From assembly GCF_009792355.1 (NCBI RefSeq), contig NZ_CP047045.1, positions 2,010,501 through 2,074,500 of the forward strand: a DNA stretch of 64,000 nt, in the 5' to 3' direction. This document shows, one piece after another, positions 6,852-64,000 of this stretch. Both the position numbers and the translations under genes were made by a program. Source of the stretch: Terricaulis silvestris. Lineage in GTDB: Bacteria; Pseudomonadota; Alphaproteobacteria; Caulobacterales; Aquidulcibacteraceae. Each line of letters starts with the position of its first letter. Positions within the stretch are counted from its first letter, which is position 1. The notes beneath the pieces were generated by a model, which was not told where the DNA came from, ran no database searches, and saw only the letters and a list, made by a program, of their open reading frames with translations.

Positions 6852-8005
6852 CACCCACCCGCCACGGTGCTGCTCGCGGCGGGCGCGAGGAAGGTCACGT
6901 AATAGCCCATGGCGACGACGGCGACGAGCGAGGTCGGCAGGAAGATTTTCCAGCCGAGACGCATGAGCTGATCGTAGCGGTAGCGCGGCACGATCGCCTT
7001 CACCATCGCGAACAGGAAGAACATGAACCAAAGCTTGGCGTAGAAGATCACGAAGCCGATCACGCCAACGCCGACCCAGCTAAAGAACGGGCCCACGACC
7101 GGCCACATCAGCATGCTTTCTACCGGCCCCCAAGGTGGATGCCAGCCGCCGAGGAACAGGATCGACGTCATCGCGCACATCAGTACGATGTTGAGGTATT
7201 CACCGATCATGAAAAGGAGATACGGCGTCGAGCTGTACTCGACTTGATAGCCAGCGACGAGTTCGGACTCGGCTTCAGGCAGATCGAATGGCGGCCGGTT
7301 GGTCTCGGCAAGCGCCGAGATGAAGAACATCCCCATCATGGCGAGCATGGTGACGCCGACGAGAATGTTGTTCGGGAATTCGTTGAAGTTGAAGATGCGG
7401 AAGCCGGTCCACATCCAGATGCCGTCGCGCTGACTTTCGACGATTGTGGTGAGGTTAAGCGAACCGACCAACAGCAGCACGGTGATGATGATGAAGCCGA
7501 TCGAGACTTCGTAGCTCACCATCTGCGCCGCCGAGCGCAGACCGCCGAGGAACGGATATTTCGAGTTCGAAGCCCAGCCGCCCATGATGATGCCGTAGAC
7601 ACCGAGCGAGCTGATCGCGAACAGGTAGAGGATGCCCACGTTTAGATCGGCGATCACGACATCCGGCGCCCACGGGATCGCGGCCCAGCCCACGAAAGCG
7701 AGCACGAACGTGATGAGCGGCGCCAGGATGAACACGGTTTTGTTCGCGCCGGCCGGGATGACGATTTCCTTGAACACGAACTTGAAGAAGTCGGCGAAGG
7801 ATTGGAGCAAGCCGAACGGCCCGACGACGTTGGGACCCTTGCGCAGCTGCACTGCCGCCCAAACCTTGCGGTCGAACAGCAACAGGAACGCGAGCGACAG
7901 CAGCAGCAGGATCATGATGAGCAAGACCTGCCCGGTCTTCATGAGCGCCCACTCGACCTCAACCGGCCAGTTCACGAACCACGTATAGTTGGCGTCCGGG
8001 TTCAT
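6851..8005 (-). CDS. nuoH: NADH-quinone oxidoreductase subunit H
   Basis: Membrane subunit that forms the quinone chamber with NuoB and NuoD. I choose ATG 8005 (MNPDANYTW), giving 384 residues; the longer frame runs back into nuoG. This start overlaps the nuoG stop by four bases. Family motifs are [31 protein letters not shown], spread over about residues 40-70, and the acidic cytoplasmic loop [20 protein letters not shown] in the middle, which lines the quinone tunnel. Eight or nine membrane spans are visible. Confidence 0.97.
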
Positions 8006-10062
8006 TCCGCCGCCACCTTTGCGCCAGCGCCGGCGCGCAAACGCGAGCACTCGGCCATCGTCTTGGACGCGCGCGCGATCGGGTTGGTGAGATAGAAATC
8101 GGTCACCGGGCTGCGGAACGGCTCGTTCGAGACTTGGCCGTCGATGCCAATCTTGGTGGCGTCGAAGCTGGCAGCATCAGCGGCGCCTGGCGCGTAGTCG
8201 ACTTGGCCGAAGCTCGGATGATCCGCGATCATCTTGGCGCGGAGCGCGGTGATCGAGTCGTACGGCAGCGTCTTGCCGAGTGAGGCAGACAGCGCCCGGA
8301 TGATGGCCCAATCGTCTTTGGCTTCGCCCTTCGGGAACGTGGCGCGGCGCCCGTATTGGACGCGGCCTTCGGTGTTCACCCAAGTCGCGTCTTTTTCGGT
8401 GTAGGCGGCGCCCGGCAGAATGATGTCGGCGCGGTGCGCGCCGGCGTCGCCGTGGGTGCCGATGTAGATCACCGTGCCGGCCTTCGGCAGCGCGACTTCG
8501 TCAACGCCAAGCAGCAGCAGCGTATCCATGCCGCCCGCGAGCATTTCGCTGGCGCTCTTGCCGCCCTGCCCCGGCAGGAAGCCGAGATCGAGACCGCCGA
8601 CACGTGAAGCCGCCGTGTGCAGAACATTGAACGCGCCGGCTTTGCCGAGGCTAGCAGCGAGTTTGCCCGCCGCACGCAACACCGCACCGCCGTCCTTACG
8701 CGCGAGCGCGCCAGCGCCGACGATGATCATCGGCTTTTGCGCGTTCTTCAGTACGTCTCCGAATTTGCCGAGATCGCTCAGCGACTGCGGGCCGGCGCCG
8801 AGGTGCTGGTACTTGTAGCTGAGATCAACAGCCTCGCCGACGACGCCAATGTCAGCGCCGCGTAGCCACGCCTTGCGCAGACGCGCGTTCAGCACCGGCG
8901 CTTCGAGGCGCGGGTTCGTGCCGATGAGCAAGATCGCATCGGCTTGATCGATGCCGGCGATGGTTGAGTTGAAGATGTACGACGAACGCTCGCCACCAAC
9001 TTGCGCGCCATCGGCGCGGCAATCCGTGTTCGGCGAACCGAGCGCACGGAACAGGTCCAGCGTCGCCTTCATGCTTTCCGCGCAAGCGAGATCGCCGGCG
9101 ATGGCGCCGATCTTCTTGGCGTCGCCGGAGAGCGCTTTTGCCGTCGCTTCCAGAGCCTCGGACCAGGAGGCCGGACGCAGCTGACCGTTCTCGCGAATAT
9201 ACGGACGATCGAGCCGTTGGCGACTTAGGCCATCCTCGGCGTAGCGCGTCTTATCCGAGATCCACTCTTCGTTGATCTCTTCGTTCAAACGCGGCAGGAC
9301 GCGGAGCACAGCGTCGCCGCGCGCATCGACACGGATATTGGCGCCGAGCGCGTCCATCACGTCGATGGTCTCGGTCTTCGTCAGCTCCCAGGGGCGGGCG
9401 TTGAAGGCGTAGGGCTTCGAGGTCAGCGCGCCGACGGGGCAAAGATCGATCACGTTGGCCGAAAGCTCGCTGGTGAGCGCCGCTTCCAGGTACGTGGTGA
9501 TTTCCATGTCTTCGCCGCGGCCGGTGGCGCCAAGCTCGGAAACGCCAGCGACCTCGGTAACGAAACGGATGCAGCGCGTGCATTGGATGCAGCGCGTCAT
9601 CACGGTCTTCACCAGCGGACCCATGAATTTCTCTTCGACCGCGCGCTTGTTCTCATCGAAGCGCGAGCCGCCGCGACCGTAGGCCACCGACTGGTCTTGC
9701 AGGTCGCACTCGCCGCCCTGATCGCAGATCGGGCAGTCCAGCGGGTGATTGATGAGCAGGAACTCCATCACGCCGTTGCGTGCGCGCTTCACGGCGGCGC
9801 TCTTGGTGACGAGTTCGTTGAGCTTGTCGTCGCGCGGCGGCGGCAGGTCTTTCACTTGCTGCGCGCACGATGCGATCGGTTTCGGCCCAGACTTGCCGCC
9901 AACCTTCACTTCGATCAGGCACATGCGGCAATTGCCGGCGACGCTGAGCCGCTCGTGATAACAAAAGCGCGGAATCTCTGCGCCGGCGGCTTCGCACGCC
10001 TGCAGCAAAGTGAGCTCTGGAGGAACGTCGACTTCAACGCCGTCGACGAGAATTTTCGTCAT
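8002..10062 (-). CDS. nuoG: NADH-quinone oxidoreductase subunit G
   Basis: Large iron-sulfur subunit of the peripheral arm; 686 residues, normal for the alphaproteobacterial/mitochondrial type. The N-terminal 2Fe-2S domain has [18 protein letters not shown]. Then come the HxxxCxxC motif [19 protein letters not shown] and the 4Fe-4S motif [10 protein letters not shown], followed by [15 protein letters not shown]. The remainder is the molybdopterin-oxidoreductase-like domain, which lacks a cofactor in this family. It starts 233 bases after the yciI-like gene, the only large gap in the operon. That gap holds an imperfect palindrome (10150-10164), so nuoG may have its own promoter. Confidence 0.97.
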
Positions 10063-10149
10063 AGAGTCAGACCGCTTTCGCGGACGCGAATGGACGATTT
10101 ATTGCGTCGCCGCAAGTGGGCGAAAGAGCCGCTACGGCGGCGGGTTAGA

Positions 10150-10164
10150 TGAGAACTATTCGCA
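10150..10164. promoter_or_regulatory. Inverted repeat upstream of nuoG, related to the nuoA and hemA sites
   Basis: The + strand reads TGAGAA-CTA-TTCGCA, five of six arm positions paired. It has the same 6-3-6 layout as the sites at 17395-17409 (nuoA) and 63979-63993 (hemA). It sits in the 233-base gap between the YciI-like gene and nuoG, centred about 95 bases before the nuoG ATG. An AT-rich AATAAA element at 10098-10103 on the minus strand could be a -10 box, but no convincing -35 is seen. Apart from this, the gap 10063-10295 shows nothing else. Confidence 0.5.
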
Positions 10165-10295: not shown

Positions 10296-10595
10296 TCAGA
10301 CTTTGGTCAGAGCGCCCTCACCCACCACCGTGATCCATTCGCGCACGCGCCAAGTGGTGACGACGCCTTCGCTCACATACGGATCGGCGCGCGCGAAATC
10401 CTCGGCGACTTGCGCGGTCTCGGTTTTGAACAACAGCAAGCCAAACGGCGGATCGTCGCTTGGCACGGCACCGCCAAGCTGCAGTTCGTCACGCGCGACG
10501 GAGGCCCGCGCAAGTTCGAGGTGCGCGGGGCGGACGGCGGCGCGCTTTTCGACGTAGTCGGGCGCGTAGGTGTAGAGGAGGAGGAAGTGTTTCAT
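10296..10595 (-). CDS. YciI-like protein within the nuo operon
   Basis: The 99-residue product begins MKHFLLLYTYAPDYVEKRA and continues with PAHLELARA, a GGAVPSDDPPFGLLLFK strand and FARADPYVSEGVV. This is the arrangement of the YciI/YCII-related ferredoxin-like fold: the N-terminal strand with a conserved His/Asp region, then the DPY motif. The function of this fold is poorly known; some relatives are dehalogenase- or hydrolase-like. I choose ATG 10595 because it lies four bases after the nuoF stop and has a purine-rich GGAGGAGG stretch downstream on the opposite strand only; upstream extension overlaps nuoF. Its place between nuoF and nuoG implies co-expression, not necessarily a complex I role. 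Confidence 0.82.
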   Translation of the reverse strand: MKHFLLLYTYAPDYVEKRAAVRPAHLELARASVARDELQLGGAVPSDDPPFGLLLFKTETAQVAEDFARADPYVSEGVVTTWRVREWITVVGEGALTKV

Positions 10596-10599
10596 TGCC

Positions 10600-11913
10600 C
10601 TACTCCGCCGCAACCGGCGTGATGACCTGGTGCACGCCCTTGGCGCTGCGATAGCGATCAATCCGCTGCTCGATCTCGCCGCGGAAGCAGCGGATCAGGC
10701 CTTGGATCGGCCAGGCGGCGGCGTCGCCCAGCGCGCAAATGGTATGGCCTTCAACTTGGCCAGCGACGTCGAGCAGCAGGTCGATCTCGCTGTGATCGGC
10801 TTCGCCTTTCGCCATGCGCTCAAGCACGCGCCACATCCAGCCGGTGCCTTCGCGGCACGGCGTGCACTGGCCGCAACTTTCGTGCTTGTAGAAATACGCG
10901 ATGCGCGCAATGGCGCGGATCATGTCGGTGGACTGATCCATCACGATCACCGCAGCCGTGCCGAGGCCCGAGCGATGTGGCGCGGCCATTAGCGCATCGA
11001 AGTCCATCAGCATCTCTTCGGATTCTTGCGCCGTGATCATGCGCACCGATGAACCACCCGGGATCACTGCTTTGAGATTGCCCCAACCGCCCCGCACGCC
11101 GCCGGCGTGCTCCTCGATCAGCTGCTTTAGCGGAATACTCATCGCTTCTTCGACGTTGCACGGCTTGTTCACGTGGCCGGAGATGCAGAACACCTTGGTG
11201 CCGGTGTTGTTGGCGCGGCCGAAGCCAGCAAACCACTTCGCGCCACGGCGCAGAATGGTCGGCACCACCGCGATCGATTCAACGTTGTTGACCGTCGTCG
11301 GGCAACCATAGAGGCCAACGTTCGCCGGAAACGGCGGCTTCAGGCGCGGCTGGCCCTTCTTGCCTTCAAGGCTTTCAAGTAGCGCGGTTTCTTCGCCGCA
11401 AATGTACGCGCCAGCGCCGTGGTGCATGTAGATGTCGAAATCCCAGCCATGCACGTTGTTCTTGCCGACAAGCTTGGCGTCGTACGCCTCCTTGATCGCG
11501 CGCTCCATCGCCTCGCGCTCATAGACGTACTCGCCGCGGATGTAGATGTAACAAGCGTGCGCCTGCATCGCGAACGACGCGACGAGGCAGCCTTCGATCA
11601 GCAAATGCGGATCGTGACGCATCATGTCGCGGTCTTTACACGTGCCCGGCTCTGACTCGTCCGCATTCACGACGAGATAGTGCGGCCGATCCTTCACCTC
11701 TTTCGGCATGAAGGACCACTTCAGGCCGGTCGGAAAGCCGGCGCCGCCGCGCCCCCGCAAGCCGCTTTCCTTCACCTGGCTGATGATCCAGTCGCGACCA
11801 GCCGCGATCATGTCTGCGGTGCCGTTCCATGCGCCGCGCTTCTTCGCGCTCTCCAAGTCGGGCCCGTGGGCGCCGTAGAGATTGAGGAAGATGCGATCCT
11901 TATCCGCGAGCAT
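10600..11913 (-). CDS. nuoF: NADH-quinone oxidoreductase subunit F
   Basis: NADH- and FMN-binding catalytic subunit of complex I; 437 residues. The glycine-rich NADH site [14 protein letters not shown] appears near residue 55. The FMN region [15 protein letters not shown] is followed by [19 protein letters not shown]. The N3 cluster ligands are in [15 protein letters not shown] with a further cysteine in [13 protein letters not shown]. All hallmark motifs are intact. Its start overlaps the upstream two-span membrane protein gene by 14 bases. Confidence 0.98.
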
Positions 11914-16904: not shown

Positions 16905-17291
16905 TCACTCCCATTCCAGCGCGCCTTTTTTCCATTCGTAGATGAAACCCACCGTCAGCACACCGAGGAACGTCATCATAGACCAGAACGCGAACTGGCC
17001 GATCTCGGGCGGCATGTCGCCCAACGTGATCGCCCACGGAAACAGGAACGCGACTTCGAGGTCGAAGATGATGAAAAGGATCGAGACGAGATAAAAGCGC
17101 ACGTCGAACTTCATGCGCGCATCGTCAAACGCGTTGAATCCACACTCGTAAGCCGAGACTTTTTCCTTGTCGGCGTTCTTCGGCGCGATCACCCAGGCGG
17201 CGATCAGAAAGCCCGCGCCCATGACGAGCGCGATCGCGAAAAAGATCAGGATCGGCGCGTATTCGAGGAGGTCCAAACCCATGCGTTTCAC
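16905..17291 (-). CDS. nuoA: NADH-quinone oxidoreductase subunit A
   Basis: First gene of the operon: a three-span membrane subunit near the quinone chamber; 128 residues. Hydrophobic segments lie at about 11-31, 66-86 and 96-116. The conserved loop [41 protein letters not shown], around residues 45-85, includes YECG and the FDLE motif. A sigma70-like promoter and an inverted repeat lie upstream (see 17353-17409). Confidence 0.98.
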
Positions 17292-17352: not shown

Positions 17353-17381
17353 ACGCTAGTGGCGCCCGCCTCGGGACGCAA
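17353..17381 (-). promoter_or_regulatory. Putative sigma70-type promoter of the nuo operon
   Basis: On the minus strand a TTGCGT element (17376-17381) is followed by 17 bases and TAGCGT (17353-17358). This resembles the loose housekeeping promoters of alphaproteobacteria. Transcription would begin near 17346, about 55 bases before the nuoA ATG. The call is by eye. Confidence 0.4.
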
Positions 17382-17394
17382 CCAGCGGAATAGC

Positions 17395-17409
17395 TGCGAA
17401 CTACTCGCA
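17395..17409. promoter_or_regulatory. Inverted repeat TGCGAA-CTA-CTCGCA upstream of the nuoA promoter
   Basis: The arms TGCGAA and CTCGCA match at five of six paired positions around a three-base centre. The centre is about 56 bases upstream of the predicted transcription start and 13 bases beyond the -35 element, a position that suits an activator. The same layout occurs upstream of nuoG and hemA. The 15-base size and AT-centred symmetry resemble Fur-family operators, but the regulator is not known. Confidence 0.55.
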
Positions 17410-17625: not shown

Positions 17626-17702
<77 letters not shown>

Positions 17703-62461: not shown

Positions 62462-62685
62462 ACGATCTTGCCCGGCCGCTCCGGCGGCGGTTCCTCGTCT
62501 TCCTGATCGTCTCTCAGGGCGCGCTCCAGCTTTCTGAGCGCGAGTGTTCGCACATCGACCAACGCCGCATGCGCAGGCGCTTGGATCACGACTTCAATAC
62601 CTGTCGCGACATCCACTGCCGCAACGCGCTGCGCGTCGCCGATGCGCGTAATCTCGAAGATGACTTCGCGATCCTCGCCGCTCAC
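62458..62685 (-). CDS. Small protein coupled to hemA (DUF6898-like)
   Basis: The 75-residue protein starts at GTG 62685, which overlaps the hemA stop (GTGA). It has strand-rich sequence [30 protein letters not shown] and a following helix [11 protein letters not shown], then an acidic/proline tail ([13 protein letters not shown]). This resembles a small alphaproteobacterial family that I recall as DUF6898; that naming is uncertain. The coupling to hemA suggests co-expression with haem synthesis. Confidence 0.75.
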
Positions 62686-63905
62686 CCGGCCACATGCACC
62701 GGGCACTTGGCCCACACGGTTTTGAACGCCTCGATCAGCCGATCCATCAGCTCATCGTCATGGAATGGCGACGGCGTGATGCGCAGCCGCTCGGTCCCGC
62801 GCGGCACCGTCGGGTAGTTGATCGGCTGCACGTAGATGCCGTGATCATTCAGCAGAATGTCGGAAATCTTCTTGCAGCGCGCCGCATCGCCCACCAGCAC
62901 TGGCACGATATGCGTGGTGCTTTCGACCATCACCGGGATGCCAGCCTCGCGCAGCAGCGCCTTCAGCCGCTCCGAGCGCTCCAACAGACGATCGCGTAAA
63001 TGCGGGCATTCCTTCACGATCCGTACGCTTTCCAGCGCCGCAGCCGCAATCGAAGGCGCAAGCGAAGTGGTGAAAATAAAGCCCGAGGCGGTCGAGCGAA
63101 TAGCGTCAATCGCCACCGACGGCCCGGTGACGTAGCCGCCCATCGTGCCGAACGCCTTGGCCAGCGTGCCTTCGATGAAATCGACGCGGTGCATCACGCC
63201 ATCACGCTCAGCAACGCCACCGCCGGTCGGCCCATACAAGCCAACGCCGTGCACTTCATCGAGATACGTCATCGCGCCATACGCTTCGGCGAGATCGCAG
63301 ATCTGTTCGATCGGCGCCGTGTCGCCGTCCATCGAATAGACGCTCTCGAACGCAATTAGCTTGGGCGCATGCGCCGGCGCCTCGTTCATCAAAGCTTCCA
63401 GGTGCTGCACGTCGTTATGACGGAACACGCGACGCTCGCACTTGGCGCGCTTGATGCCCTCGATCATCGAGGCGTGGTTTTGCGCGTCCGAGAAAATCCA
63501 GAGGTCCGGAAACAGCTTCGCCAGCGTCGACAACGTCGCGTCGTTCGAGACATAGCCCGACGTGAACAGCAGCGCCGCTTCCTTGCCGTGCAGCGACGCT
63601 AACTCCAGCTCCAGATCGACGTGATAGCTCGTGGTGCCCGCGATGTTACGCGTGCCGCCGGCGCCAGCGCCGACTTGATCCAGCGCCGCATGCGCCGCGT
63701 CGAGTACTTCGGGGCTCTGGCCCTGGCCGAGATAGTCGTTCGAGCACCACACCACGATGTCGCGGTACGCGCCGTCCTCGCCGCGCAAGCGCGCATGGGG
63801 AAAACGCCCGCGTTCGCGCATGATATCGGCGAACACGCGATAGCGCCCTTCGTCGCGAATGCCCGCGACGGCGCTCTCGAAAACCTGAAGGTCCTGGTCT
63901 CTCAT
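62682..63905 (-). CDS. hemA: 5-aminolevulinate synthase
   Basis: First step of haem synthesis in the C4 pathway: glycine plus succinyl-CoA to aminolevulinate. 407 residues from ATG 63905 ([13 protein letters not shown]), the usual length. Motifs are [82 protein letters not shown], and the Schiff-base segment [19 protein letters not shown] (rather than glutamyl-tRNA reductase) is an alphaproteobacterial trait. A perfect 6-3-6 palindrome lies 74-88 bases upstream. Confidence 0.97.
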
Positions 63906-63978
63906 CCTATCTGCTAGTGTATAGGCACTCCGCGCCGCCGAAGTAACTGAGACGCGAGCGCGCAACTGAAAGAGAATT

Positions 63979-63993
63979 TGCGAACCATTCGCA
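63979..63993. promoter_or_regulatory. Perfect palindrome TGCGAA-CCA-TTCGCA upstream of hemA
   Basis: The two six-base arms are exact reverse complements around a three-base centre. It is centred about 81 bases before the hemA ATG. A TATACA element on the minus strand at 63918-63923 could be the -10 box, which would put the palindrome near -75. It matches the sites found upstream of nuoA and nuoG. Confidence 0.6.
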
Positions 63994-64000
63994 TGAATTA

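Follow-up and report, generated by a model that had tools for sequence, protein, structure and literature searches.

Our analyses have identified three 15 bp palindromes in the 64-kb stretch of Terricaulis silvestris DNA under study (hereafter the window) that almost certainly belong to one family of operators, predicted from their sequences to be of the Fur type. These palindromes are located before nuoA, before nuoG and between the divergent genes hemA and hemB (Table 1), and it is very probable that they are Fur boxes of a system in which iron-loaded Fur (Fe-Fur) represses iron uptake and activates nuoA, nuoG and hemA; the binding of Fur, the positions of the promoters and the sign of the regulation are all inferred. 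The three sites fit TGNGAACNAYTCGCA, a 7-1-7 inverted repeat, and 5, 5 and 6 of the seven pairs are intact at the nuoA, nuoG and hemA/hemB sites, respectively, which confirms the common layout that a first-pass annotation of this DNA had reported at these coordinates. The same annotation had named the genes downstream as nuoA, nuoG and hemA. The products are indeed NuoA, NuoG and 5-aminolevulinate synthase, but the third site also adjoins hemB, which the edge of the window hides from view.

Table 1. Predicted Fur boxes, promoter elements and genes in the window of Terricaulis silvestris.
Feature	Position	Strand	Basis and remarks
Fur box (predicted), nuoA-N promoter: TGCGAACTACTCGCA	17395..17409	.	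+ strand read; matrix
Fur box (predicted), internal nuo promoter before nuoG: TGAGAACTATTCGCA	10150..10164	.	+ strand read; matrix
Fur box (predicted) between hemA and hemB: TGCGAACCATTCGCA	63979..63993	.	+ strand read; matrix; conservation
Probable -35 box of nuoA (TTGCGT)	17376..17381	-	conserved in aligned nuoA upstream sequences; the Fur box is 13 bp further upstream
Probable -10 box of nuoA (TAGCGT)	17353..17358	-	conservation; 17 bp from the -35 box
nuoA	16905..17282	-	ATG at 17282; the ORF list has GTG at 17291
Conserved promoter/leader block before nuoG (TTTCGCCCACTTGCGGCGACGCAATAAATCG...CCGCGAAAGCGG)	10063..10125	-	28-genome alignment; putative function
nuoG	8002..10062	-	TIGR01973, 669 bits
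Probable -35 box of hemA (TTACTT)	63941..63946	-	conserved CAGTTAC block
Probable hemA -10 box (TATACA, mostly TATAA among relatives)	63918..63923	-	alignment
hemA, 5-aminolevulinate synthase	62682..63905	-	TIGR01821, 636 bits; ATG at 63905
hemB, porphobilinogen synthase, first bases	63993..64000	+	continues beyond the window

Within the window, TGCGAAYNRTTCGCA is matched with at most one mismatch at exactly three places, viz. the nuoA, nuoG and hemA/hemB sites. Dinucleotide shuffles of the window give an expectation of 0.13 such matches and none of 100 shuffles reaches three; when the half-sites were permuted instead, all 150 resulting palindromes stayed below three matches in the window. Because this pattern was derived post hoc from the window sites, greater weight attaches to an independent matrix, trained exclusively on 13 fbpA sites (12 from relatives and one from the T. 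silvestris genome) and therefore blind to nuo and hemA. This matrix scores the nuoA, nuoG and hemA/hemB sites at 20.6, 19.8 and 25.5 bits, respectively, against 9.2 bits for the next best position in the window.

The complete genome of T. silvestris (3.86 Mb, one contig) contains TGNGAAYNAYTCGCA at four places, viz. the three window sites and fbpA, whose product has ferric-iron-binding proteins as its closest solved structures. Allowing up to one mismatch, TGCGAAYNRTTCGCA is found at nine places genome-wide, seven of them in promoter regions (fbpA, hemA/hemB, nuoG, nuoA, acnA (aconitase), a haem TonB receptor/regB pair and piuC) and two inside coding sequence. The genome scan that the first-pass annotation had proposed thus places seven of the nine best sites at promoters of iron uptake, Fe-S, haem and respiratory genes. 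That annotation had named matches at random or mainly coding positions as the contrary outcome: coding positions account for two of the nine; the raw count, however, is weak evidence, being no higher than in a dinucleotide Markov sequence as long as the genome (7-8 matches), although above that of palindromes with permuted halves (about 2.4). Since the number of sites does not exceed the Markov expectation, the case rests on gene context and conservation and not on number.

Several individual sites of the genome scan deserve description. The piuC box is located between the PKHD hydroxylase gene (piuC) and another ORF, and the Fur-like box at L008 1501-1515, flanked by the haem TonB receptor gene on one side and a gene for a redox kinase of the RegB/ActS type on the other, would link iron and redox control. 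The two near-matches inside coding sequence, one in a gene for an S4-type RNA-binding protein (recognised by eye; L005) and the other in a TonB receptor gene (L006), were set aside. At two mismatches, the whole genome holds 44 sites versus 40 in the control, and these sites are mostly ascribed to chance; one of the six that were inspected, a weaker box with the sequence TGCAAGTCATTCGCA (L224 1063-1077) about 285 bp before a bacterioferritin gene, may nonetheless be real and possibly stands before a bfd gene.

The distribution of the palindrome among related species was examined in a genus sample made up mostly of draft and metagenome assemblies, the closest named relatives being labelled Hyphomonadaceae or Caulobacteraceae. 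The exact palindrome occurs 35 times in 25 genus genomes versus once for a reversed control, and assignment of these occurrences to genes by tblastn and position places 15 at fbpA, 8 at hemA/hemB, 5 upstream of guaA, 4 at nuoG and one each at acnA and piuC, with one unassigned. Hence, 29 of the 35 sit at genes that are also boxed in T. silvestris itself (viz. fbpA, hemA/hemB, nuoG, acnA and piuC). The occurrences upstream of guaA (GMP synthase) are found in L107, L214, L216, L218 and L219; in L219 the assignment relies on a contig edge. Either guaA or one of its neighbours may be a member of the Fur regulon.

When the fbpA-trained matrix is applied to the genus, the hemA/hemB box is kept in 23 of the 24 testable genomes, the nuoG box is present in 15 of 28 (at -90 to -113), the acnA box in 14 of 25, and a strong nuoA box in 6 of 29, where it occupies a fixed place at -116 to -118 from the nuoA start. 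The nuoG site is therefore commoner than the nuoA site, and every genome with a strong nuoA site also carries the nuoG site (6/6). The boxes are better conserved than their flanks, with values of 0.92 versus 0.57-0.66 for hemA and 0.85 versus 0.46-0.58 for nuoG. In 1.54 Mb of nuo loci from named relatives, the four matches above 16 bits are all located before nuoA or nuoG. Beyond the genus, in 16 genomes from four other families of the Caulobacterales, a Fur-like box is found before nuoA in six and before hemA in four; all four of these hemA boxes are without an adjacent hemB and two are without any divergent gene.

The position of the boxes differs between the uptake gene and the iron-using genes. 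The fbpA upstream regions share a TTGACC and, 17 bp further on, a -10 element that touches the box, and the fbpA boxes overlap the -10/start region, 20-45 bp before the start. The nuoA, nuoG and hemA boxes lie upstream of the predicted core promoters (about -56 to -75), which they do not overlap. The location of the nuoA site upstream of a putative -35 box, as claimed in the first-pass annotation, holds across several species in the alignment, and the centre of this box is at about -56 relative to the predicted promoter. The gene immediately upstream of nuoA, in the same orientation, encodes a tRNA (17629-17702), and in two relatives with a degraded nuoA box (L154 and L155) an apparent tRNA 3' end is seen in this region.

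The nuoG box is centred at about -68, and the strongly conserved block before nuoG lies 24 bp beyond it. A small ORF (10296-10661; YciI-like by reading of its sequence) separates nuoF from nuoG, so that the nuoG site sits in a genuine intergenic stretch of the operon. The block, which aligns in 28 genomes including those free of a Fur box, holds CTTGCGGCGACGCAATAAATCG (a 5-4-5 inverted repeat, TTGCG GCGA CGCAA) and CCGCGAAAGCGG; it matches no Rfam family, and a promoter, the site of another regulator and a structured leader are candidates for its function.

The hemA/hemB box is centred at about -75 relative to the predicted hemA promoter, a conserved pair of the TTAC-17-TATAA type; the TTG at 63965, at which hemA starts in the ORF list, falls inside this promoter. 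A second conserved element at 63947-63964 (TGCGC-N4-GCG-C in relatives), located downstream of the Fur box but ahead of the hemA -35 box, may be bound by a different regulator, e.g. of the RegA/PrrA type. In T. silvestris the hemB ATG begins with the last base of the box; hemB is divergent to hemA at every genus locus where the two were found adjacent, and of the 23 genus genomes with the site, most have the box next to the start of hemB. The conservation of the box may be due in part to the hemB start. The boxes before hemA in other families, which lack an adjacent hemB, favour hemA as a target, and we infer that the third site serves mainly hemA and not hemB.

The FUR-family search of the T. 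silvestris genome found only two members, viz. one Fur (L017) and one Zur (L018), and no Irr gene. Two clear Rrf2-family proteins are fitted better by IscR models than by the RirA model, on which they score 57.5 and 39.6 bits against a cut-off of 193, and no RirA gene was found. The segment ISIATVYRTVRLFEE of Fur, which comprises the recognition helix, is identical in the Fur of Magnetospirillum gryphiswaldense MSR-1, for which the feoAB1 operator TTAATCGCAACTCATTCGCAATTGC has been footprinted (PMC4506495). This operator shares 11 of 15 bases with the hemA box, a level reached by 0.025% of random 15-mers from the window, and its right half, CATTCGCA, is the same as in the hemA box, while its left half, CGCAACT, differs, as does a residue of loop 1 (Lys15 in the Magnetospirillum protein, arginine in T. 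silvestris). The resemblance to Fur-family operators noted in the first-pass annotation is thus supported by the fbpA-trained matrix, by the iron-gene context and by the presence of Fur in the genome, whereas Irr, RirA and Mur, which it had offered as alternative regulators, are disfavoured in comparison with Fur, no Irr having been found and the two clear Rrf2 proteins being IscR-like.

The placement of the boxes over the promoter at the uptake gene and upstream of it at iron-using genes is fitted by one dual-mode regulator, which is most likely how Fur acts here. Fe-Fur bound at the -10/start region of fbpA would repress iron uptake when iron is ample, and Fe-Fur bound upstream of nuoA, nuoG and hemA would most likely act as an activator, so that the synthesis of complex I and haem would be raised only when iron is available. 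The net effect would be a direct iron-sparing switch, with uptake repressed and iron-using genes (nuo, acnA, hemA) activated. In Caulobacter crescentus, Fur binds and activates nuoA-N, acnA and sdh, the mRNA of nuo, acnA and sdh falling there without iron or Fur, and it represses genes whose promoters overlap the Fur site (PMC6120978; PMC3751524), with bfd and a gene for a PKHD hydroxylase among its repressed targets; at the sites before nuoA-N and acnA, direct binding and activation by Fe-Fur are described in the account of da Silva Neto et al. (2009) given in PMC6120978 (see also PMC3751524). Sites before nuoA-N and acnA are common to T. silvestris and Caulobacter. T. silvestris adds the nuoG box within the operon, the hemA/hemB box and the fbpA box, its boxes have the GC-rich form TGCGAAYNRTTCGCA, and no box was found upstream of sdh, a Fur target in Caulobacter. 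The main texts of the two Caulobacter studies (PMC3751524; PMC6120978) do not name hemA or hemB. In Gluconacetobacter diazotrophicus (PMC9368920), nuoA-N, acnA, sdh and genes for the uptake of iron are likewise preceded by predicted Fur boxes; this species belongs to another alphaproteobacterial order, the matrices used were those of E. coli and Pseudomonas, and hemA is not named.

Other explanations of these sites have been considered. That GC-rich palindromes merely happen to precede nuoA, nuoG and hemA is barely conceivable: the genome-wide count does equal the Markov expectation, but seven of the nine sites fall at promoters of iron genes, the exact palindrome outnumbers its control 35 to 1 in the genus, both place and sequence are conserved while the flanks vary, and the strong matches in the related nuo loci are confined to nuoA and nuoG. 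It is also very unlikely that a metal regulator other than Fur, viz. the manganese-sensing Mur, Irr or RirA, acts at these sites. The Fur of T. silvestris is as close to the chains of 5fd5/5fd6, which we take to be the Mur of Rhizobium (207 bits), as to the Fur of Magnetospirillum (204 bits), but the targets found concern iron uptake, Fe-S proteins, haem and respiration and not manganese uptake, the FUR-family search found Fur and Zur but no Irr, and the two clear Rrf2 proteins score far below the RirA cut-off. Fur is a repressor in most cases, and repression at nuoA, nuoG and hemA as well would agree with this usual mode; we nevertheless regard it as improbable, as the boxes are clear of the conserved core promoters and the nuo and acnA genes of Caulobacter are activated by Fur.

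A further alternative for the third site is that Fe-Fur bound at the hemB start region represses hemB, either alone or together with activation of hemA. The box touches the hemB ATG, most of the genus sites are found beside the hemB start in a placement that resembles that of the repressed fbpA, and in L138, the sole genus genome with a hemA locus lacking hemB, the box is also missing. However, repression of a haem enzyme under ample iron contradicts physiology, Irr repressing hemB when iron is scarce (PMC11442138); no hemB promoter is recognisable; and the box precedes hemA without an adjacent hemB in the four genomes of other families, two of which have no divergent gene. Repression of hemB is accordingly somewhat unlikely, and activation of hemA by Fur is the reading we retain. 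A more far-reaching form of this reading, in which Fur takes over the role that Irr plays in rhizobia, with Fe-Fur at the hemA/hemB box activating hemA while touching the hemB start and thereby coupling the first two steps of haem synthesis to iron, and in which complex I is controlled by iron chiefly via an internal, Fur-activated nuoG promoter and less via nuoA, is put forward tentatively, as a possibility we would not yet favour. The Irr of Bradyrhizobium similarly ties an early step of haem synthesis to the iron supply, but it does so by repressing hemB at low iron (PMC11442138), whereas in T. silvestris no Irr was found and Fur would activate.

The nuo part of these results repeats the known wiring of Caulobacter, which the nuoG and hemA/hemB boxes extend. 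Three short palindromes lead in this manner to a Fur regulon that can be put to the test, in a genus represented in this sample mostly by draft and metagenome assemblies. The control of complex I by Fur, as described in Caulobacter, extends across the order, yet it has been gained and lost. Of all the parts of this regulon, the hemA/hemB box, present in 23 of 24 testable genomes, is conserved best and documented least, and it suggests how haem synthesis may be coupled to iron where Irr is absent.
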